Shown piece after piece: positions 19,713-29,789 of a stretch of DNA of 41,871 nt (the stretch's first letter is position 1; each line of letters begins with the position of its first letter). The position numbers were made by a program, and so were the translations under genes. Source of the DNA: Syntrophaceae bacterium. GTDB lineage: Bacteria > Desulfobacterota > Syntrophia > Syntrophales > UBA2185. The notes under the pieces are model-generated. The model did not search any database and was not told the origin of the DNA. It saw nothing but the letters and a program-made list of their open reading frames with translations. The DNA lies in NCBI GenBank assembly GCA_003153775.1, contig PMBI01000042.1, forward strand, positions 33,029-74,899. The letters run 5' to 3'.

Positions 19713-22409
19713 ATGGAAATTAAGAAGATTTCACTAACCATTGACGGCAAGGAGATCCAAGCCATACCCGGACAGACAATTCTGGAGGTTGCCCGTGCTA
19801 ACGGTATCTATATACCGACACTCTGCCAGTACGCGGGCACCACAAACGTCGGCGCATGCAGGGTATGCGTGGTCGATGTCGCGGGTGCGAGGACCCTTGT
19901 GGCTTCCTGCTGCATGCCGATAAACGCCGGCATGGTCATCAAGACTGATACGCCGGCTGTAAGAGCGGCCCAGCGACTGGTCGTGGAGCTTCTCTGGGCT
20001 TCGGGCGACCACAACTGCCTCACCTGTGAAGCGAACGGGGTGTGTGAACTTCAAAGCCTTGTGTACTGGCTGCAGATAGAAAAACCGCGGTTCAATATCG
20101 AATCTCCCGGTTATGAGATTGAAGAAACCAATACCATGATCCAGAGAGATCTGAATAAATGCGTTCTCTGCGGCAGGTGTATCAGAGCCTGTAATGAGAT
20201 TCAGGTTAACGAAGTTCTCGACTTTGCTGGGCGCGGTTTTCGCACCAAGGTCGGCCCGGCCTTTGACGCGGATTATATCGACTCGGAGTGCGTGTTCTGC
20301 GGCGAATGTGTAGATTCCTGCCCGGTAGGCGCTTTAACTTTCAAGCAGGCCAAATTCCAAGGGCGTCCATGGGAGATCAAAAAGGTGAAGACGACATGCA
20401 CGTATTGCGGCGTCGGTTGCCAGCTTGATCTGAATATACACAACGGAAAGCTGGTAAAGGTCACCGGCAATCATGAATATGGCCAGCCCAATGAGGGCAG
20501 ACTTTGCGTGAAGGGCCGTTTTGGACTGGATTTCGTCCAGCATCCGAACCGCCTCACTACCCCCCTCATCAGAAAAAACGGGGAGCTGAAAGAGGCGAGC
20601 TGGGATGAAGCTTATGAATTCATCGCCAAAAAACTTGCTTCCATCAAGAAAAAACACGGCGCTGACAGTATCGCGGGTTTTTCCTCCGCCAGGGTTACTA
20701 ACGAAGAGAATTATCTCTTCCAGAAATTTATGAGAGCAGTCATCGGAACCAACAATGTCGATCACTGCGCCCGTCTTTGACACTCCTCCACAGTGGCCGG
20801 TCTGGCCGCCGCCTTCGGGAGTGGTGCAATGACGAATTCCATTGATGAAATAGAATATACCAATGCCATCTTTGCCATAGGAACCAACACAACAGAAAAT
20901 CATCCTGTTATCAGTTCGAAAGTGAAAAGAGCTGTTCGTCTTCACGGCGCGAAATTGATCGTTGCAGATCCGAGAGAAATAGACATGGTGAAATACGCCG
21001 CGATCTGGCTGCGCCAGAAGCCCGGCACTGATGTGGCCCTTCTCAATGGAATGATGAACGTCATTATCTCCGAAGGCCTCTATGCGAAAGAGTACGTGGA
21101 AGAGCGTACCGAGGGATTTGACGCGATGAAGAAGATCGTGGAGAAATATACGCCCGCGTATGCCGAAAAGATTACAGGCGTTCCTGCGGACGACATCAGA
21201 ACGGCTGCCCGCATCTATGCGAAGGCGGGCAAAGCGGCGATTCTCTATACCATGGGTATTACCCAGCACATAACAGGGACGGACAACGTCAAATCCTGCG
21301 CTAATCTCGCCATGCTTTGCGGCTATTTAGGCATAGAGGGAGGAGGCGTCGATCCCCTGAGAGGCCAGAATAATGTCCAGGGCGCTTGCGACATGGGCGC
21401 ACTTCCTGTCGTTTTCACCGGCTATCAGCCTGTAGCCAATGATGAGACAAGATCAAAATTTGAAAAAGCCTGGGGAGTCGCTTTACCTCCTAAACCCGGC
21501 CTTACCATTGTGGAAACACTGAATGCTGCGCACGATGGGAAGGTGAAAGCCCTCTTCGTCGTCGGCGAAAATCCCATGCTCTCCGATCCCGACTTAACTC
21601 ATGTAAAAGAAGCCTTGAACCATCTGGATCTTCTTGTTGTGCAGGACATCCTGCTCTCTGAGACGGCTGAACTTGCCCACGTTGTGCTGCCGGCAGCCTG
21701 CTTTGCAGAAAAAGAAGGGACCTTCTCCAATACGGAAAGAAGGGTGCAGCGCGTAAGAAAGGCCCTTGATGCTCCCGGCCAGGCAAAAGCGGACTGGGAA
21801 ATTATTTGTGAACTTTCTACTCACATGGGCTATCCTATGAAATATGCGGCTCCTGAAGATATCATGAAGGAGATCAACCGATTGACTCCGAGTTATGCGG
21901 GGATAACTTATGAAAGGCTTGAAAAGGAGGGTATCCAGTGGCCGTGTCCGAATGCGGATCATCCGGGAACCAAATACCTGCACAAGGACAGATTCACCAG
22001 AGGGCTGGGACTATTCCATGCCCTTGATTACATTCCGCCTGCGGAAGTTCCGGATGCCGCGTATCCGTTTGTCATGACCACCGGCCGCGTCCTTTACCAA
22101 TATCACACGGGGACAATGTCCCGCCTGTCGAAGGGTATCACGGAAAGGTGCCCGGAGTCTTTGGTAGAGATTCACCCCAATGACGCAAAAAAACTGGGAA
22201 TTCAGGAAGGTCAATTTGCAAAGGTCACTTCCCGCCGTGGTGTTGTCCAAGCGAAGGCCAAGGTGACGGAACGTGTGCCCAAAGGGACCATCTTTATGAA
22301 CTTCCATTTCAAGGAAGCGGCCGTTAACTTACTCACGAACCCTGCGCTCGACCCGACCTGCAAAATTCCTGAATACAAGGTCTGCGCCGTTAAAGTGGAA
22401 GCGGCATAG
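19713..22409 (+). CDS. fdhA: Selenocysteine formate dehydrogenase, catalytic subunit
   Basis: A single gene read through an in-frame UGA at 20778-20780, giving 898 residues with selenocysteine 356. In order: an N-terminal [2Fe-2S] domain ([16 protein letters not shown]); a His-Cys3 cluster motif ([15 protein letters not shown]); two [4Fe-4S] motifs ([11 protein letters not shown] and [11 protein letters not shown]); the molybdopterin-enzyme [4Fe-4S] motif CTYCGVGC; then the bis-MGD catalytic domain. The sequence around the [11 protein letters not shown][11 protein letters not shown], is the formate dehydrogenase active site with the conserved His after Sec. The C-terminal MGD-binding domain carries [14 protein letters not shown]. 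It oxidises formate or reduces CO2 in the cytoplasm (no Tat signal). AAAGGAG precedes ATG 19713. No FdhB/NuoF-type partner is adjacent. Confidence 0.95.
20778..20812 (+). promoter_or_regulatory. Bacterial SECIS element directing selenocysteine at UGA
   Basis: Starting 12 nt after the UGA (20778-20780), a hairpin is formed by GTGGCC (20793-20798) and GGCCGC (20804-20809) with apical loop GGTCT (20799-20803). The loop begins 18 nt after the UGA. As I remember the E. coli fdhF SECIS, its GGUCU loop is at the same spacing. This element recruits SelB with Sec-tRNA. Confidence 0.85.
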
Positions 22410-22429
22410 GAAAAAAAACAAATTCATGA

Positions 22430-22460
22430 TTGCCTCGCTTACGGCGGGGCAACTTTAATA
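22430..22460 (+). terminator. Hairpin between fdhA and the MFS gene, possible attenuator
   Basis: TTGCCTCGC (22430-22438) pairs with GCGGGGCAA (22444-22452), nine pairs including one G-T, around a five-base loop. Only a weak, interrupted T tract follows (CTTTAATATT). It could be a leaky terminator or an mRNA-stabilising hairpin that sets the ratio of fdhA to transporter message. Confidence 0.45.
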
Positions 22461-22503
22461 TTACATAAGAGCAAAATATTTCATAATGGAGGGCAAAGGT
22501 ATT

Positions 22504-23742
22504 ATGAGTAATGAAAATTTAGAAAGTAAGAGATGGTTGATTGCAATTGCGGCGATCGTAATGCAACTGTGTCTCGGGACGGTCTATGCCTGGTCCGTCT
22601 TTAAGAAACCCCTCATGACCGCACATGGGTGGGGTGAAACGGCGACCCAGGTGACGTTCATGATCTGTATTGGCATGATCGGTGTCGCCGCCGCTTTTGG
22701 CGGAACGCTGGTCGACAAGAAAGGTCCCAAGTTTGTGGCAACCATTGGCGGTATCCTTTTCGGTGTTGGAACACTCCTTTCCGGCTTGGCCGATCAGATC
22801 GGAAGCATCTGGCTTTTGTATCTTGGTTTCGGTTTCATCGCTGGTCTTGGCAACGGTTTCGGCTATATCACCCCCATTGCCACGCTCATACGCTGGTTCC
22901 CGGATAAGCGCGGTCTGGTGACTGGACTTGCCGTGATGGGATTTGGCGGCGGCGCCTTTTTTATGGGCAAGATTGCTCCTCCTATGGTCATCTCCATGGG
23001 TGTGGCAAACACCTTCTACATCTGGGGCGCGATATTTCTGGTTCTCGTCACCGCATCTGCTCAGCTCTACAAAAATCCACCAAAAGGCTGGCTCCCGGCA
23101 GGCTTTACTCCTAAAGCAACAGGCGTCACGGCAGCGCAGTCGTTTACCTTTGATGAAGCCGTGAAGACTCCCCAGTGGTGGATGCTCTGGACAATGCTCT
23201 TCCTGAACGTGTCCGCCGGACTCGGACTGATCTCCCAGCTCTCCCCGATGGCCCAGGATGTCATCAAGAAAACCGATCCTTTGATCGCGGGAGCGGCGCT
23301 GGCCCTGGCGGGAGGATCGATCCTTGCCTACGCGTCCATCTTTAATGGTCTGGGGCGTCTCTTATGGGCATGGACATCCGATGCTATTGGCAGAAAGAAC
23401 GTGTTTATCATCATGTTTATCACCCAGGCCATTCTTTATGTCCTGCTGCCCCAGATAGACAATCAGTTGATCTTCATCGTCGTCGCGTGTTATCTTCTGG
23501 CTTGTTACGGCGGCGGCTTTGCTACAATGCCGGCATTTGCCGCAGACTCCTTCGGACCCGGCTACATCGGAAAAGTCTATGGGATAATGCTGACAGCGTG
23601 GGGTGCGGCCGGTATTGTCGGACCGCTGGTATTCGCTCAGATTAAGGGAATCGCGGTGTATGTTGCCGCAGGGCTTCTCGCGGCAGGTTTCCTTATTGCA
23701 TTGAGCTACAAGAGACCGGCGCCGAAATCGGCAAAGGCGTAA
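22504..23742 (+). CDS. OFA-family MFS transporter, oxalate/formate antiporter-like
   Basis: A 412-residue major-facilitator protein with about twelve membrane helices. The N-terminus LCLGTVYAWSVFKKPL, the GGTLVDKKGPK loop after helix 2, and GYITPIATLIRWFPDKRGLVTGLAVMGFG are hallmarks of the OFA (oxalate/formate antiporter, OxlT-like) family. Substrates across the family vary (oxalate, formate, lactate, other monocarboxylates). Position directly behind a formate dehydrogenase makes formate or a related carboxylate the best guess, but this is context, not proof. The start is ATG 22504, preceded by GGAGGG and AAAGG; the ATG at 22486 overlaps that ribosome binding site and is unlikely. Confidence 0.85.
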   Translation: MSNENLESKRWLIAIAAIVMQLCLGTVYAWSVFKKPLMTAHGWGETATQVTFMICIGMIGVAAAFGGTLVDKKGPKFVATIGGILFGVGTLLSGLADQIGSIWLLYLGFGFIAGLGNGFGYITPIATLIRWFPDKRGLVTGLAVMGFGGGAFFMGKIAPPMVISMGVANTFYIWGAIFLVLVTASAQLYKNPPKGWLPAGFTPKATGVTAAQSFTFDEAVKTPQWWMLWTMLFLNVSAGLGLISQLSPMAQDVIKKTDPLIAGAALALAGGSILAYASIFNGLGRLLWAWTSDAIGRKNVFIIMFITQAILYVLLPQIDNQLIFIVVACYLLACYGGGFATMPAFAADSFGPGYIGKVYGIMLTAWGAAGIVGPLVFAQIKGIAVYVAAGLLAAGFLIALSYKRPAPKSAKA

Positions 23743-23757
23743 ATACTCTCTCAATGC

Positions 23758-23810
23758 AGGGCGGATTTTCTCTCTTCCAAACGTAATGCGGGGGAATCCG
23801 CCCTTTCCCC
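23758..23810 (+). terminator. Possible terminator after the MFS gene
   Basis: A perfect 10-bp inverted repeat, AGGGCGGATT (23758-23767) and AATCCGCCCT (23795-23804), ends in TTTCCCC. The 27-base loop is longer than usual, so strength is uncertain. Confidence 0.4.
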
Positions 23811-23873
23811 TGCAAGGGCGAAAAACAAGTTGAGAACATCTGTACAAGAAACTGAATGGGAGGAATGAAGAAA

Positions 23874-24338
23874 ATGCAAAATACGCTTAGCTCTGTGCTG
23901 AATATGGCCATTGACAAGGAAAAAGAGGCGTACGATTTTTATATGAACCTCTACACCCTGGTAGAAGATAAAGAGGCGAAAAGCACCCTGAAGTATATAG
24001 CTAAGGAGGAAGCAAAGCACAGAGACTTTCTGACAACCTGCCAGAAAGGCCGCTTCTGCTCGGAAGTCTTGAACATGGAAACACCAATCGCATACAAAAT
24101 AGTCGAGCATATCGAGAAGCCGGATATAAAGAAGAACATAAAAAGCGCTGAGGTCTACCTCATCGCTGCTAACAGAGAGCTCAACTCACACAATTTTTAC
24201 AAGAGCCTGGCAGACTCCTATCCCGCCGGCGATGTAAAAGATCTTTTGACTAAAATGGCGGGCGAAGAGTTGAAACACAAGGAGAAGATGGAGTATCTTT
24301 ACTCCAATACGGCGTTCCCGCAAACGGCCGGTGGTTGA
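23874..24338 (+). CDS. Ferritin-like/rubrerythrin-type diiron protein
   Basis: About 154 residues forming a predicted four-helix bundle. Diiron ligands are visible as EKEAYDFY on helix 1, EEAKHRDF on helix 2 (ExxH), ANRELNSHNFY on helix 3 and GEELKHKEKMEYL on helix 4 (ExxH). There is no C-terminal rubredoxin domain, so it is not a full rubrerythrin. The likely role is peroxide or iron handling that protects oxygen-sensitive Fe-S, selenium and nickel enzymes encoded nearby; this is inference. GGGAGG (23857-23862) best serves ATG 23874; ATG 23865 and 23856 are in frame but too close to or overlapping it. Confidence 0.85.
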   Translation: MQNTLSSVLNMAIDKEKEAYDFYMNLYTLVEDKEAKSTLKYIAKEEAKHRDFLTTCQKGRFCSEVLNMETPIAYKIVEHIEKPDIKKNIKSAEVYLIAANRELNSHNFYKSLADSYPAGDVKDLLTKMAGEELKHKEKMEYLYSNTAFPQTAGG

Positions 24339-24426
24339 CCGATTCTTTGAGACATATACAAATTTATTTTGCAGAAGTTACATTGACAAAGTCTTCTTAA
24401 GATGCTTGAATTTTTAATATAAACGA

Positions 24427-24876
24427 ATGGAGGGCATAGTAATATTTGCACCGAAAAATATTCTTGTTCCAACCGATTTTTCCAATTATTACAACAAGGC
24501 AATAAAAAAGGCTGTGGAGATTGCATTGCAGCATGAGTTCAAGACTTATATTCTTCATGTTGTTGATGAGATAATGCAGTGCGCCGTAGATTACTGCCTC
24601 GACGTCTCTGTCGTAAAGCAGATCGAAAAGCAAAGCACGAAGTTTGCCGAAGAAAAACTGCGAAAGATAGTTAAGGCTCTTCCCAAGGGCACCAAGGTTG
24701 CTGCTGATATAAAAATGGGAGATACCTATGAAACGATCCTGAAGGAGCGGCAGCGCAAGCGTATCGACCTGATTGTGATCGCATCCCGCGGGAAAAAAGG
24801 ACTGATCCATCGTCTCGGCAGTATTGCAGATAAGGTCATGAGGGGCGCCAAGTGTCCAGTTCTGCTTGTTAAATAG
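24427..24876 (+). CDS. Universal stress protein, UspA family
   Basis: A 149-residue single-domain Usp protein. It begins with the strand KNILVPTDFSNYYNKAIKKA and ends with the nucleotide-binding signature DLIVIASRGKKGLIHRLGSIADKVMRGAKCPVLLVK (key residues G, G and S), so it probably binds ATP. Such proteins act in the cytoplasm in stress and stationary phase; the partner is unknown. The open frame starts at ATG 24427, but GGAGGG lies just inside it and no Shine-Dalgarno precedes it, so the real start may be a few codons downstream. A strong terminator follows. Confidence 0.88.
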   Translation: MEGIVIFAPKNILVPTDFSNYYNKAIKKAVEIALQHEFKTYILHVVDEIMQCAVDYCLDVSVVKQIEKQSTKFAEEKLRKIVKALPKGTKVAADIKMGDTYETILKERQRKRIDLIVIASRGKKGLIHRLGSIADKVMRGAKCPVLLVK

Positions 24877-24894
24877 GAATTAAGTAATCGTCCC

Positions 24895-24930
24895 AAGACG
24901 GCCCGACGTTTCAAAGGCCGTCTTTTTTTC
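24895..24930 (+). terminator. Rho-independent terminator after uspA-like gene
   Basis: AAGACGGCC (24895-24903) pairs perfectly with GGCCGTCTT (24916-24924) around a 12-base loop, followed by a run of T residues. It separates the fdhA-to-uspA block from the hydrogenase operon. Confidence 0.85.
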
Positions 24931-25241
24931 TGTGCAAAGAACAGCAATGTCGATGGCTTTGATCTCGTCAGCCGGCTGTCTCGATCATGTCCGCTTCTAA
25001 CCGGCCTGCATGTGCTGTAACGTATACGATATGATCAACATATCTGACGACACGGGGAATCTGCTCGTCTTAGACTTCTTCTCCCGGCAATAACCTTTGT
25101 TTTTCCCGATTTCACCGCAATGATCATGTACTTGCCCCTCTTCCGGAATGACTATCAAACAAAACCATGTCCCAGTATATGAAGAATTTCTGTCAATTTT
25201 TTCCTTGACACAAGAACCCCTTTCTGATAGTCGAGCGTGAC

Positions 25242-25261
25242 ATATGTCCAAACGGACATAT
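25242..25261. promoter_or_regulatory. Perfect palindrome upstream of hydrogenase operon
   Basis: ATATGTCC (25242-25249), AAAC, GGACATAT (25254-25261): eight perfectly complementary bases per arm. With the two bases before it, it contains GACATATGT, the same nine bases found in the palindrome upstream of fdhA. Most likely an operator; the regulator is unknown. Confidence 0.45.
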
Positions 25262-25406
25262 TCCTCAATCAGGCATAGTCCCCTTTATCTGATGGTCGCA
25301 GCAATTTCAAGCACTTCATATGACGGGAGACCAAATCAGCTATGTTACTGATAGATGCCAAAATCAAAATAAAAAAGATTTCTTTGGAAAGGAGGCGTGG
25401 CAAACG

Positions 25407-27188
25407 ATGACGATGGTCAATATTAACATAAATGGCCAGAAAGTCAGTGCAGCAGCCGGCAGTACCATCCTTAAGGCCGCAAAGCAGGCAGGCATTGACA
25501 TCCCGACGCTCTGTGACCATCCTGCTTTGATTCCAGTTGGTGCTTGCCGAATATGCGTTGTGGAGGTTAAAGGACAACGCACCCTGATCACGGCATGTAC
25601 TTTCCCTATATCTGAGGGATTGGAAATACAAACAGAATCACCACAGGTAGTTAAAGCGCGAAAATTAGTCCTTGATCTGATATTTTCAGAACGAAACCAT
25701 TACTGCCCGTACTGCGAGATGAGTGGAGACTGCGAATTGCAAAATCTGGGGTACCGCTATAGTCTAGATCACTTTATTTATCCGACTTATACAAAGCGTT
25801 TCCCGGTTGATGCTACACGTAAGTACTTCCTCATGGATCACAACCGCTGTGTTCTATGCGGCCGTTGTGAGCGAGCATGCGGCGATCTCGTGGCCAATCA
25901 CACCCTTGGTTTGCGGAATCGCGGTGCCAATTCCATGATCCATGCCGATGCGAATGTTCCATTTGGTGAGTCTACCTGTATCTCTTGCGGCTCATGCCTG
26001 CAGGTATGCCCCACAGGCGCCCTGTGTGATAAACGGAGCGCGTACATGGGACATGACATACAGATGGAACATATCAAGACTACCTGCAATCAGTGCAGTA
26101 TCGGATGCGGCATGGAGATCGTCACCCGCGGCGGCAATGTCTTGAAAATTGTGGGCGACTGGGATGCGGCGGTGAACAGTGGGCTGCTTTGTAAAAACGG
26201 CCGCTTTGATCCTCTTTACGATGAACGTCAACGTATTACCAGGCCTTTGCTCCGGCGAAAGGGTAAACTGGAGCCGGCAAGCTGGGAAGAAGCTATGCAG
26301 GCTGTTGCTGAGCGCGTTGGCAAGGCCAATGCTAAAGACTTAGGGGTGCTCGCTTCCACTTACGCTACGAATGAAGCCCTCTATCTGCTTGCGAAGTTAT
26401 TCCAGAAAGAACTGAAAGCAACCAACGTTGGCTTACTCAACGACGTTGCGCCGAAACTCTCCGATAAACAAGGCTCGCTTGCCGACATCGTCCTCGGCGA
26501 CGTCATTCTTGTGGTCGGTTGTGATTTACTGAAGGATCAGCCGGTTTCCTCTTTCTTTGTCAAACGATCCGTTGACAGGGGTGCACGGCTCATCGTGGTG
26601 GACGGTAAAGACAACGGACTGGCGCCATTCGCCTATATGAATCTTGGGATGGCCGAGATAAGCAAGGCCATCGAAATAGCACAGCGTGCCTCACATCCGG
26701 TCGTGCTGTATGGCGCGGGTGTCACGGACAAGGCTGCGACGGCGCTGAAAAAGCTCCAGGGGAAGGCCTCTTTCGTGGCAATAGAAAATGGCGTCAACAC
26801 GCGGGCGGCGGCGGCTTTGGGACTAAACAACGGATTCAAGCCCTCTGCCGTAAAAGTATTGTATGCCTTGCTTGGTGAACAAAAGCTCGACGACAAGGAC
26901 GTATCCAAAAATGTTGACAATAAAGCGTTCGTAATAGCGCAGGCCAGCTTCGCATCTCCTCTGACCGAACGAGCCGACGTGGTGTTGCCTATGGCAATAT
27001 GGTCGGAGCGAGCAGGCAGCCTTACAAATACAGAAGGTAGCGTACAGCAAGTTAACAAAGCTGTAGAACCTGCGGGTGAAGCTAAGCCAGACTGGGAAGT
27101 CATCTCCTTGCTGGCAGATAAACTGGGAAAGAAGCTTGGCGCTTCGCTAGGCGAGATTTCGGCTCGCGCAACCCAGGAACTCAAGTGA
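25407..27188 (+). CDS. NuoG/HoxU-like Fe-S electron-transfer subunit of hydrogenase
   Basis: 593 residues from ATG 25407, placed by AAAGGAGG about 11 nt upstream. The N-terminal [2Fe-2S] domain (LCDHPALIPVGACRIC) is followed by a His-Cys3 cluster (RNHYCPYCEMSGDCELQ), two [4Fe-4S] motifs (CVLCGRCERACG and CISCGSCLQVCP), the CNQCSIGC [4Fe-4S] motif and a shortened molybdopterin-type domain. Aligned with FdhA in this window, the Sec/Cys active-site segment is missing (ATNVGLLNDVAPKLSDKQ stands in its place), so, like NuoG, it should conduct electrons without a molybdenum centre. It takes the place of HoxU in the hydrogenase operon but is about twice HoxU's length. hoxY follows by 14 nt. No HoxF/NuoF or HoxE gene is present. 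Confidence 0.88.
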   Translation: MTMVNININGQKVSAAAGSTILKAAKQAGIDIPTLCDHPALIPVGACRICVVEVKGQRTLITACTFPISEGLEIQTESPQVVKARKLVLDLIFSERNHYCPYCEMSGDCELQNLGYRYSLDHFIYPTYTKRFPVDATRKYFLMDHNRCVLCGRCERACGDLVANHTLGLRNRGANSMIHADANVPFGESTCISCGSCLQVCPTGALCDKRSAYMGHDIQMEHIKTTCNQCSIGCGMEIVTRGGNVLKIVGDWDAAVNSGLLCKNGRFDPLYDERQRITRPLLRRKGKLEPASWEEAMQAVAERVGKANAKDLGVLASTYATNEALYLLAKLFQKELKATNVGLLNDVAPKLSDKQGSLADIVLGDVILVVGCDLLKDQPVSSFFVKRSVDRGARLIVVDGKDNGLAPFAYMNLGMAEISKAIEIAQRASHPVVLYGAGVTDKAATALKKLQGKASFVAIENGVNTRAAAALGLNNGFKPSAVKVLYALLGEQKLDDKDVSKNVDNKAFVIAQASFASPLTERADVVLPMAIWSERAGSLTNTEGSVQQVNKAVEPAGEAKPDWEVISLLADKLGKKLGASLGEISARATQELK

Positions 27189-27202
27189 AAGGAGAATGGA
27201 CG

Positions 27203-27748
27203 ATGGCAAGAGTTAAAGTCGCCACTGACTGGTTGGCTGGATGTGCTGGATGTCATATGTCTTTTTTAGACATTGATGAACGCATTGTCAAATTGTTGGA
27301 ACTGGTGGAATTTACGTCGAGTCCTGTGACGGACCTAAAACATCCACCCAAAGAGGGTGTAACTGTTGGTATACTTGAAGGGGCCATCTGCAACACACAC
27401 AACATCGAAGTTGCTAAGCAAATGCGCGAGCGCTGCCAGATACTTATCGCCGTTGGTGATTGTGCCACTTTTGGAGGTGTCCCTGCTATGCGCAACTTGT
27501 GCGGCACAGATGAGGCACTGAAGCGCGCGTATCTGGATACGGAAAGCGTCGTGGACGGACTCATTCCTGACTCTCCGGAGCTTGGGAAGCCCCTTGAAAT
27601 GGTTACGGGCGTTGGTGAAGTAGTAAAGGTTGACCTCTTTATTCCCGGCTGCCCACCGAGGGCTGATGCTTTTTGGTACGCATTGACAGAACTACTCGCC
27701 GGGCGAGTGCCTATTGTTTTGCCACGTGAACTTTTTACATATGATTAG
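27203..27748 (+). CDS. hoxY: [NiFe]-hydrogenase small subunit, HoxY-like
   Basis: A 181-residue small subunit. The cysteines for the proximal [4Fe-4S] cluster are in WLAGCAGCHMS, GDCATFGG and PGCPPRAD. It lacks the Tat signal and the C-terminal medial/distal cluster domain of membrane-bound hydrogenases, so it is the short cytosolic group 3 form. It passes electrons from HoxH to the NuoG-like subunit. ATG 27203 is chosen because AAAGGAG (27188-27194) lies 8 nt upstream; an earlier GTG overlaps the stop of the preceding gene. Confidence 0.9.
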   Translation: MARVKVATDWLAGCAGCHMSFLDIDERIVKLLELVEFTSSPVTDLKHPPKEGVTVGILEGAICNTHNIEVAKQMRERCQILIAVGDCATFGGVPAMRNLCGTDEALKRAYLDTESVVDGLIPDSPELGKPLEMVTGVGEVVKVDLFIPGCPPRADAFWYALTELLAGRVPIVLPRELFTYD

Positions 27749-27760
27749 AGGAGAATATCT

Positions 27761-29191
27761 ATGGAAGCTCGAAAGATAACCATTGAACCTATAACACGCA
27801 TCGAAGGTCATGGGCGAATCACGATCCATCTAAATGAAGAAGGCAAAGTAGATCAGTCCTTTTTTCACGTTGATGAATTCCGTGGTTTAGAGAAATTTAC
27901 TGAAGGTCGCCCATACTTTGAGATGACACAGATCACTCAGCGCATTTGCGGTATCTGTCCGGTAAGCCATCACCTGGCCGCAGCGAAGGCCTGCGATGGC
28001 GTCGCCCGTGTGGATCCTCCGCGGCCGGCTAAGCTGCTGCGTGAGTTGCTGCATATGGGGCAATATGTGCAGTCCCACGGGATGCATTTTTTCCACCTGG
28101 CAGCGCCTGACCTCGTCCTGGGTTTTGATGCCGACCCCGCCATACGGAATGTTTTCGGGATCATCGGAGCGAACCCCGAACTGGCATTGAAGGCAGTGAA
28201 TCTGCGCCGCTTCGGACAGCAGATCATTCAAAGACTGGGTGGGAAGCGTGTACATCCCAATTTTGCTGTTCCCGGTGGGGTTAACGCACCTCTCTCCCCC
28301 AAGGATCGCGATGAAATACTGGCCGAGTTCGATACCATGGTTGGTATCGCCAAGGTGGCGGTGAGCATCGGCAAGGACTGGCTGGGATCCAACAAAGAGC
28401 TGGCTTCTGTCTTTGCATCTTTCCCTTCCAATTATATGGGTCTCGTGGACATGGAAGGCGGCCTGCAGCTTTACGATGGTGAGATCCGGGTAAAGGATGC
28501 CGACGGCAACTTTGTAGCACAGTTCAAGACGGATCATTACCTGTCATATATAGCCGAGCATGTGGAGTCCTGGTCCTTCCTCAAATATCCTTACTTGCGC
28601 AAGCTCGGTTGGCCCGACGGAACCTATCGTGTAGGACCGTTAGGGCGCTTGAACGTTGCGGATAAGATTGGCACACCCTTGGCAAACGAGGAACTCAAGC
28701 TCTTCAAACAGATCAATGGCGGCAAGCCTGTGGAAGGCTCTCTCTATTATCACTATGCCCGGTTGATAGAACTTGTCTACGCCTTAGAACGCATTGCTCA
28801 GTTGCTGGACGATCCGGATATCATGTCCAACGACATCCGCGCGTATGCAACACATACGCAGCTTCCGAGCCAGGGGGTTGGCGTTGTTGAGGCCCCTCGA
28901 GGGACCCTTTTCCACGATTACGGCACGGACGAGAATGGCCAGTTGACCAGGGTGAACCTCATCGTGGCCACAGGCAACAATAATTGGGCCATGCAAACAG
29001 CCTCAGGGCTGGTCGCAAAAGCCTTCGTTGATGGCACAAAGCTAACCGAAGGCATGTTAAACAGAGTTGAAGCGGCTATCCGTTGCTATGACCCATGCTT
29101 GTCGTGCGCAACGCATGCCATAGGGAAAATGCCCTTGGAAGTTACTCTTATAGGGGCGAACGGCACAGTGCTGGATCGAATTTCCCGGTAA
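27761..29191 (+). CDS. hoxH: [NiFe]-hydrogenase large subunit, HoxH-like
   Basis: A 476-residue large subunit carrying the NiFe(CN)2CO site. The N-terminal ligand motif is RICGICPVSHH (Cys63, Cys66). The C-terminal motif is DPCLSCATH (Cys446, Cys449, His452). A 24-residue extension beginning AIGKMPLEV follows His452 and should be removed by the maturation protease encoded downstream. The overall type matches cytosolic bidirectional (group 3) hydrogenases that use or make H2. It starts 12 nt after hoxY with GAGGAG upstream, and a perfect terminator hairpin lies 30 nt after its stop. No hyp accessory genes are in the window. Confidence 0.93.
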   Translation: MEARKITIEPITRIEGHGRITIHLNEEGKVDQSFFHVDEFRGLEKFTEGRPYFEMTQITQRICGICPVSHHLAAAKACDGVARVDPPRPAKLLRELLHMGQYVQSHGMHFFHLAAPDLVLGFDADPAIRNVFGIIGANPELALKAVNLRRFGQQIIQRLGGKRVHPNFAVPGGVNAPLSPKDRDEILAEFDTMVGIAKVAVSIGKDWLGSNKELASVFASFPSNYMGLVDMEGGLQLYDGEIRVKDADGNFVAQFKTDHYLSYIAEHVESWSFLKYPYLRKLGWPDGTYRVGPLGRLNVADKIGTPLANEELKLFKQINGGKPVEGSLYYHYARLIELVYALERIAQLLDDPDIMSNDIRAYATHTQLPSQGVGVVEAPRGTLFHDYGTDENGQLTRVNLIVATGNNNWAMQTASGLVAKAFVDGTKLTEGMLNRVEAAIRCYDPCLSCATHAIGKMPLEVTLIGANGTVLDRISR

Positions 29192-29220
29192 TATGAAAAT
29201 CTGATATCAACGGGTTTAAC

Positions 29221-29262
29221 AAAAGCGGGTGAACTCAAGAAGTTCACCCGCTTTTAACTTTT
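29221..29262 (+). terminator. Perfect 15-bp hairpin terminator between hoxH and its protease gene
   Basis: AAAAGCGGGTGAACT (29221-29235) and AGTTCACCCGCTTTT (29241-29255) are perfectly complementary around loop CAAGA, followed by AACTTTTTT. It is symmetrical enough to work in both directions. It lies 30 nt after hoxH and 20 nt before the protease ATG, so the protease is made only by read-through or from its own promoter. Confidence 0.9.
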
Positions 29263-29282
29263 TTGGGCTTGCTTGGGATCTT

Positions 29283-29789
29283 ATGCCTCGTACTCTGGTT
29301 ATTGGTTTTGGCAATATAGACCGCGCCGATGATGGCGTTGCATATTTTGTGGTAAATGCCCTGCGGCGGCGCCTGGGTCAGGGGATACTGCATGAAGACG
29401 AGACCGGACTGGAGGAACTGGGCGCACAGATAGATTCCATTTTTCTGGTTCAACTGGCACCAGAGTTAATGGATGTGATGGCTGTTTACGACGAGATCAT
29501 CTTTGTAGATGCCCACGTTTATGAGAACGTAGCGACCCTTCATTGCGCTCCCGTATTTCCCGAATTCACTCCTGCCACATTCACTCATCATCTGACACCT
29601 GAAATGCTTTTTGCGCTTCTCAAGTCACTGCACCATCGAGAGCCCGCGGGGCATATCGTTTCCATCCGCGGTTATGACTTTGATTTCCATCGCAGCCTCT
29701 CTGCCGATACCGAGGCCGTCGTGGAGAAGGCAGTGGATCATATCCTGCAATTGCATGGACCTTCCGTGATGGATCCTGCACTTGATTAA
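29283..29789 (+). CDS. hoxW: Hydrogenase maturation endopeptidase, HoxW-like
   Basis: A 168-residue endopeptidase of the HyaD/HybD/HoxW family. The conserved VIGFGNIDRADDGVAYFVV block contains the first metal-binding acidic residue. IIFVDAHV supplies the second and THHLTPEMLF the histidine that, in this family, recognises nickel in the large subunit. It cuts the C-terminal extension of HoxH after His452 once nickel is inserted. The frame is open upstream through the terminator hairpin, but ATG 29283, the start of the conserved MPRTLVIG strand, is the natural start; TTGGGA lies about 5-10 nt before it. Confidence 0.88.
   Translation: MPRTLVIGFGNIDRADDGVAYFVVNALRRRLGQGILHEDETGLEELGAQIDSIFLVQLAPELMDVMAVYDEIIFVDAHVYENVATLHCAPVFPEFTPATFTHHLTPEMLFALLKSLHHREPAGHIVSIRGYDFDFHRSLSADTEAVVEKAVDHILQLHGPSVMDPALD

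Follow-up and report, generated by a model that had tools for sequence, protein, structure and literature searches.

Formate dehydrogenase and [NiFe] hydrogenase genes of a Syntrophaceae bacterium: gene order in relatives suggests a shared NuoF-GltD flavin hub

How a formate dehydrogenase and a hydrogenase that are encoded close together, neither with a flavin subunit beside it, are connected to pyridine nucleotides is the question raised by a 41,871-nt stretch of DNA (the window) on contig PMBI01000042.1 of Syntrophaceae bacterium GCA_003153775.1, a bacterium of anaerobic sediments whose 3.13 Mb genome is assembled in 98 contigs and estimated to be 99% complete. At positions 19,713-29,789 the window encodes a selenocysteine formate dehydrogenase (FdhA) and a [NiFe] hydrogenase consisting of a long Fe-S subunit, a small subunit and a large subunit (HydA, HydS and HydL; together HydASL). 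A first-pass annotation had proposed either a direct, flavin-free wire from FdhA through the NuoG-like Fe-S protein to a HoxYH hydrogenase, or docking of both enzymes to a shared NuoEF encoded elsewhere. The second proposal fits best: FdhA and HydASL probably dock onto one flavin hub that is linked to NAD(P) and whose genes lie elsewhere in the genome, on contig C4. This reading is favoured because C4 encodes a suitable hub with no catalytic subunit beside it and because of the gene order in relatives.

The identity of the two enzymes follows from their domains and motifs. FdhA (19713-22409, forward strand, as are all genes described here) covers the whole formate dehydrogenase alpha subunit model TIGR01591 (915 bits) and carries a NuoG-type N-terminal Fe-S arm with Fer2_4, NADH-G_4Fe-4S_3 and Fer4 domains. 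HydA (25407-27188; the listed open reading frame opens at 25320, and the start is most likely the ATG at 25407, with GGAGG ahead of it) has the Fe-S arm and the Molybdopterin domain and lacks the Molydop_binding domain, so that its first description as a molybdenum-free NuoG-like protein is borne out, as is that of FdhA as a selenoprotein of NuoG architecture. HydS (27185-27748, with the start at 27185 or 27203) shows the cysteine motifs CAGC, GDC and PGCPP as in the Acetomicrobium hydrogeniformans locus (L180), and HydL (27761-29191) the motifs RICGICPVSH and DPCLSCATH. All 19 arm and A5-region cysteines of A. hydrogeniformans HydA, together with one histidine, are kept in the window HydA and equally in FdhA, in keeping with the same cluster set in the two arms; the residues are those that we take to belong to clusters A1-A5. 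While the assignment to [NiFe] small and large subunits stands, the Hox label does not: the best solved matches of HydA, HydS and HydL are chains A, E and D of 7t2r, the Acetomicrobium mobile NiFe-HydABCSL (297, 179 and 566 bits), ahead of the Hox enzyme 5xf9 (130, 147 and 422 bits), which makes HydSL a better name than HoxYH. The family-model matches listed for the window proteins include no Hox large-subunit model, and an F420-type hydrogenase was rejected as both VhuA (431 of 800 bits) and VhuG (122 of 450) stay under the cut-off.

The absence of a diaphorase holds for the window and its contig, on which a profile search found no NuoF (PF01512), but not for the genome. The search of the whole genome for nuoE/nuoF, which the annotation had recommended, identified three NuoF genes, on contigs C4, C80 and C94. 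On C4 the order is PHP protein, HATPase, NuoE, 2Fe-2S protein and a NuoF-GltD fusion of 1020 residues, followed by a 189-residue protein without Pfam match; searches of C4 gave no match to HydL, to the molybdopterin Fe4S4 domain or to the [FeFe] hydrogenase domain, and the latter (PF02906) has no match in the whole genome. This orphan NuoE/2Fe-2S/NuoF-GltD set is referred to here as the hub. The NuoF proteins of C80 and C94 were rejected as partners, each being part of a cluster with its own neighbours. That of C94 (L006:5398-11558) forms a NuoE-NuoF-short NuoG arm set behind three pyruvate/2-oxoacid oxidoreductase genes and resembles the Por-Bfu type outlined in passages of PMC9304861. On C80 (L005:1490-15848) NuoE, NuoF-GltD, an 835-residue NuoG/dihydroorotate-dehydrogenase-like protein and a second GltD form a transhydrogenase-like cluster of unusual make-up; it adjoins complex I-like membrane genes, with a large subunit that ends in DPCICCMER and was judged by eye to be group 4-like [NiFe]. 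An AIRS-domain protein nearby was read as HypE.

The A. hydrogeniformans locus has the order PHP-NuoE-HATPase-2FeS-NuoF-HydA-HydS-HydL, and C4 plus the window contain this same gene set, split between HydB and HydA; together they would correspond to the electron-bifurcating NiFe-HydABCSL. The NuoF half of the hub fusion (residues 1-542) has HydB of 7t2r as its best solved match (808 bits). Solved matches of the GltD half include 9bov chain A and 8oh5 chain C, both taken here to be Stn-type transhydrogenases, and no solved chain among the best 60 of 131 spans both halves. With respect to HydB, for which the B2 ligand set is given as Cys438, Cys476, Cys531, Cys536 and His525 (PMC8880783), the hub keeps three Cys and the His at B2, with Ser at the semi-conserved position, as well as four N-terminal cysteines (B5) and all B1 ligands. 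The ferredoxin-type C-terminal domain that holds B3/B4 is gone, and GltD, with a Fer4_20 domain of its own, stands in its place. The GltD part contains the Rossmann motifs GAGPAG and GGGNSA and a RRERKDMP stretch presumably typical of NADPH. This composition suggests that the low-potential branch of the hub ends at NADP(H), a partner in place of ferredoxin.

Which catalytic subunits accompany such hubs was surveyed in 149 Syntrophales genomes (G codes; individual loci have L codes). HydL, searched with E values up to 1e-30, gave matches in 28 genomes, 25 of which were kept as orthologues or fragments; G004, G036 and G068 (33-44% identity) were dropped, and G044 (61%) was retained although the HydL tree places it outside the Syntrophales clade. 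Hubs were counted among the matches listed when judged to be C4-type (for the most part at 67-100% identity, and also on partial contigs), leaving out the C80 type and matches of about 50-57%; window-type FdhA, also counted among the matches listed, comprises proteins of about 61% identity and more plus that of G006 (54%), to the exclusion of paralogues at 51-58%. The hub lies directly upstream of HydASL on the same strand in G016, G042, G122 and G024, is separated from it by an [FeFe] hydrogenase subunit in G048 and G019, and in G046 its GltD end precedes HydA at the contig edge, for a total of 7 of the 25 HydL genomes. An [FeFe] group A6 subunit follows the hub within 300 bases in at least 31 genomes, and a group A6 hydrogenase is found in 10 of the 25 HydL genomes. 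In at least 27 of the 149 genomes window-type FdhA is encoded no more than 8 kb downstream of NuoF-GltD, and in at least 19 no more than 202 bases downstream, another catalytic subunit being interposed in G016 and G006. In the sister genus (G045, L115) the order is hub-FdhA-OFA carrier, with an FdhA 85% identical to that of the window, and in G016 (L058, same contig as L132) hub, HydASL, protease, FdhA and OFA carrier are on one strand. The hub would thus be the common piece, and FdhA, HydASL and the [FeFe] HydA its alternative or joint partners.

In the survey outside the order, which covered the best 80 of 586 named HydL loci, 43 loci have at least 8 kb of sequence upstream of HydL; 39 of them, counting Hox-type loci, carry a same-strand NuoF there, and 10 carry a NuoF with GltD (14 of 80 overall). 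FdhA is near HydASL on the same strand in six of the 80: L131, which belongs to the window's genus and has a cut FdhA with no NuoF in 5.6 kb; L132 (G016), with NuoF upstream; L146, from Bellilinea caldifistulae GOMI-1, with NuoEF, FdhA and HydASL in one run; L150, from a Chloroflexota metagenome-assembled genome (MAG) with only 1.4 kb upstream; and L153 and L170, from a Chloroflexota and a Dehalococcoidales MAG, respectively, both with NuoF upstream. In L146 and L170, where Cys replaces the selenocysteine, FdhA is located between NuoF and HydA and ends 11 and 15 bases, respectively, before HydA; NuoF ends 19 bases before FdhA in L170, and about 0.9 kb separates the two in L146, in whose NuoF proteins no GltD domain was found. 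More than any other observation, these two NuoF-FdhA-HydA runs hint that formate dehydrogenase and [NiFe] hydrogenase form a joint assembly. The probability of finding FdhA beside HydASL by chance (4 of 34 loci with sufficient flanking sequence) was estimated at 0.00003, 0.0001 and 0.0008 by assuming 2, 3 or 5 fdhA genes per 3 Mb, respectively, values that are a rough guide only because the loci are taken as independent though three are from Chloroflexota. As a side observation, two NuoE/NuoF pairs in a row precede HydASL in Chloroflexota loci L143, L147, L149, L153, L154, L155, L158, L159, L162 and L169, and where visible the PHP/HATPase/2Fe-2S set accompanies the first pair only.

The same neighbourhoods bear on the direct wire. 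An H2-dependent CO2 reductase (HDCR) or NAD-free formate hydrogenlyase consists of FdhF, a hydrogenase and HycB-type Fe-S linkers, with no NuoEF. In the window, electrons would correspondingly flow from FdhA through the NuoG-like protein to HydSL with neither flavin nor NAD, a scheme with which several observations agree: the 19 cysteines common to both arms, the proximity of FdhA to HydASL in G000, G055, G064 and G016, the lack of a NuoF beside FdhA/HydASL in the window's genus, and the existence of soluble Fdh/[FeFe] hydrogenase complexes with formate hydrogenlyase activity (PMC12905484). However, relatives, if not the window itself, have NuoEF next to these modules, and outside the window's genus all FdhA-HydASL loci with enough flank (L132, L146, L153 and L170) have NuoF upstream. 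Moreover, no HycB-like linker gene was seen when the list of open reading frames of the window was checked by eye, and FdhA and HydA both seem to bear an arm of the NuoF-docking type rather than what would be complementary faces. Beyond neighbourhood, then, nothing speaks positively for the wire, and we regard it as very improbable. The broader proposal of a [NiFe] counterpart of formate-H2 complexes is kept alive by the Chloroflexota and G016 runs, but in a form other than the NAD-free HDCR: since the runs of relatives include the diaphorase, the appropriate model would be the Clostridium Fdh-Hyt.

A weightier alternative is that of two separate enzymes, a formate dehydrogenase and a [NiFe] hydrogenase, both NAD(P)-linked, that each assemble with hub copies of their own and exchange electrons only through NAD(P)H. 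It overlaps with the shared-hub reading, from which it differs only in denying a single particle, and it is a serious contender that nevertheless falls somewhat short of being probable. In the conservation survey called for at the outset, about 5 kb separates FdhA from HydASL on one strand in G000 and G055, and no more than 1 kb in G016; in G064 FdhA is nearby and cut by the contig end. FdhA within 6 kb of HydASL on the same contig occurs in 3 of 25 HydL genomes plus G064, so that in most HydASL genomes it is not close by. In the window, three genes (for the carrier, a ferritin-like protein and a universal stress protein) separate FdhA from HydASL and 530 bases precede the HydA start, because of which the two are probably separate transcription units. 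Furthermore, the cofactors of the two pentamers in the A. mobile structure are reported in PMC8880783 to be more than 40 Å apart. The tight FdhA-HydA spacing of L146 and L170 speaks instead for one assembly, at least in L170. A single particle with FdhA and HydASL is possible. The most far-reaching version, namely a bifunctional Fdh/[NiFe] complex on one hub that interconverts formate, H2, NADH and NADPH, with bifurcation redirected to NADP(H) and with the same hub accepting exchangeable FdhA, HydASL and [FeFe] HydA modules across Syntrophales, appears doubtful as a whole.

That HydASL might be an ordinary Hox-type (group 3d) hydrogenase, with HoxEF lost or missed in the assembly and the C4 hub serving other enzymes, was considered by taking into account the phylogeny of HydL. 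A quick, midpoint-rooted tree of 100 proteins, with SH-aLRT as its only support measure (L131-L133 omitted because they duplicate loci of the order, and only loci with a HydL match above 450 bits included), places the window and the Syntrophales loci in a side of 56 rows, alongside Desulfobacterota, Chloroflexota and Planctomycetota loci, and Acetomicrobium, further long-arm loci and the short-arm Hox clade in the other 44. The short-arm Hox loci, including those of cyanobacteria, form one 19-row clade (SH-aLRT 100) that excludes the window. HydSL is homologous to HoxYH, as the 422 bits of HydL against 5xf9 attest, the HydA arm is homologous to HoxU, and a genome in 98 contigs may contain a small gap. 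Still, the genome is estimated to be 99% complete, HydA has about 590 residues as compared with about 240 of HoxU, neither the short HoxU arm nor an adjacent HoxF is found in the window, and in G003, G009, G106, G110 and G139 HydASL is without a NuoF of its own despite upstream room. A Hox enzyme is therefore improbable. Judged from sequence, the window enzyme is HydASL-like in architecture, yet not the nearest relative of the characterised Acetomicrobium enzyme. A second, distant family of [NiFe] large subunits (about 42-46% identical), encoded near GltD-like and other Fe-S genes, was also observed (L052/L076 of G016, L166, L167 and L196).

On the shared hub, FdhA and HydASL would each dock through their own NuoG-type arm. 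By analogy with solved structures, electrons from H2 would reach FMN through [NiFe], S1, A3, A2, A1 and B1, those from formate through the pyranopterin, A5, A4, A2, A1 and B1, and both would continue to NAD, while a low-potential branch via B2 would lead to GltD and NADP(H), replacing ferredoxin. In a syntroph the reaction would run mostly in reverse, from NAD(P)H to H2 and formate. As for bifurcation, PMC7311640 gives three residue marks for beta subunits that bifurcate, two of which the hub has, namely Ala/Met near NADH and GGPSG.

Several observations weigh against this scheme. The C4-type hub is present in at least 24 of the 25 HydL genomes (the exception, among the matches listed, being G101), but also in at least 118 of all 149, and some NuoF-GltD-like match in 140; such near-universality in the order makes its co-occurrence with HydASL weak evidence, and it is gene order that carries the argument. 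In 18 of the 25 HydL genomes the hub was not seen beside HydASL and, although some contigs are cut, G003, G009, G072, G106, G110, G112 and G139 have at least 4 kb of upstream contig without it. No catalytic subunit was seen after the hub in the four genomes of the window's own genus (L004, L111-L113; in G064, L112, only 0.9 kb is visible), which is why docking is deduced from relatives, and FdhA could have a different partner or none. With regard to bifurcation, the semi-conserved B2 ligand, Ser in the hub, is Cys or Thr in known enzymes; the third residue mark (Phe367) could not be placed in the hub; and the full B1-B5 set is held necessary in passages of PMC9304861 and PMC11406978. In Syntrophus aciditrophicus and Syntrophomonas wolfei the [FeFe] hydrogenases are described as non-bifurcating (PMC7311640, PMC5626996), the S. 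aciditrophicus HydAB being an NADH enzyme (PMC7311640). It is quite possible that the hub is a plain NAD(P)H diaphorase, because of the missing B3/B4 and of this precedent.

Among known systems, NiFe-HydABCSL of A. mobile (7t2r/7t30, PMC8880783) is the best solved match for HydASL and the NuoF half of the hub. The [NiFe] catalytic and proximal cysteines of HydS/HydL, the same arm cysteines and A1-A5 ligands of HydA with neither H-cluster nor molybdenum site, and the PHP, HATPase and 2Fe-2S genes beside NuoE/NuoF (L180) are shared features. The differences are that the genes are split over two loci, that GltD takes the place of the B3/B4 [4Fe-4S] domain of HydB, that FdhA neighbours the hydrogenase and probably shares the hub, and that HydL does not group next to Acetomicrobium. 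In the Fdh-Hyt of Clostridium autoethanogenum (FdhFeFe-Bfu in PMC9304861; called NADP-specific in the title of a reference in PMC7311640) and in the Fdh/Hyd complex of C. beijerinckii (PMC12905484) a formate dehydrogenase and a hydrogenase are likewise linked to one soluble electron hub, but here the hydrogenase is [NiFe] HydSL, the genome gave no match to the [FeFe] domain, FdhA brings a NuoG arm of its own, and a joint complex is a prediction from gene order. As in FdsABG-type and Type 1 Fdh-Bfu enzymes (PMC9304861), FdhA with a NuoG arm is found downstream of NuoE/NuoF in members of the order; unlike them, the partner is NuoF-GltD and the window FdhA is detached from it. Stn/Nfn-Bfu transhydrogenases (PMC7483475, PMC10482914) also combine a HydBC-like module with a GltD NADPH domain, which is fused to the NuoG-like subunit there and to NuoF in the hub. 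The passages of PMC9304861 that list the types name NiFe-, Fdh- and FdhFeFe-Bfu and no Fdh-NiFe type, and neither 'GltD' nor 'fused' occurs in its main text; a NuoF-GltD hub common to formate dehydrogenase and hydrogenases was not found in the titles and abstract starts of the open-licence papers that literature searches listed.

Returning to the window, the selenocysteine of FdhA is specified by the TGA at 20778-20780 (context HCARL-U-HS), the single TGA of its frame, and a TGA is present in each FdhA match of the order with at least 61% identity, among the matches listed. The genome has a SelB match over the cut-off (388 versus 242 bits). A SECIS-like fold starting at the TGA is weakly better than shuffled sequences (z -1.4; 21 of 200 at least as good), as compared with z -0.3 for another stretch of the window and -2.1 (6 of 200) for a second Sec-FdhA on contig C3 (L018:460-3138). 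This copy is 74% identical over residues 4-606, has an OFA carrier adjoining on the other strand and lies on a 4.8 kb contig; it seems damaged or an assembly error because additional TGAs occur late in the frame when the TGA is read open. The carrier downstream of the window FdhA (22486-23742), which also adjoins FdhA in G045 (L115) and G016 (L058), belongs to the OFA family of MFS proteins, as had been annotated, but was rejected as evidence for formate: the nearest named family is that of the L-lactate transporter (NF049980, 421.7 bits, cut-off 320), the oxalate/formate families remaining under cut-off (218 and 203). The ferritin-like/rubrerythrin-domain protein (23856-24338) and the universal stress protein (24427-24876), both identified by domain search, are probably no part of the enzyme. 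Behind hydL, a pattern match located a strong terminator-like hairpin (29221-29255; 15-pair stem, then a T-rich tail), followed by the hydrogenase maturation protease (29283-29789), for which a start at 29283 is more likely than the listed opening of the frame at 29229, inside the hairpin. Terminator-like sites number 19 in the window versus 11.2 expected, and the promoter scan is at chance level (11 versus 11.4 expected).

It has long been asked how syntrophs, working at the thermodynamic limit, produce H2 and formate from NADH. Two syntrophs are known to have [FeFe] hydrogenases that do not depend on ferredoxin (PMC5626996, PMC7311640). If confirmed, a NuoF-GltD hub that accepts formate, [NiFe] and [FeFe] modules interchangeably would add a route able to draw on NADPH, and a hub shared by FdhA and HydASL would be the [NiFe] version of the known formate-hydrogen systems, with the named strain Bellilinea caldifistulae GOMI-1 (L146) making the link between formate dehydrogenase and [NiFe] hydrogenase directly testable.

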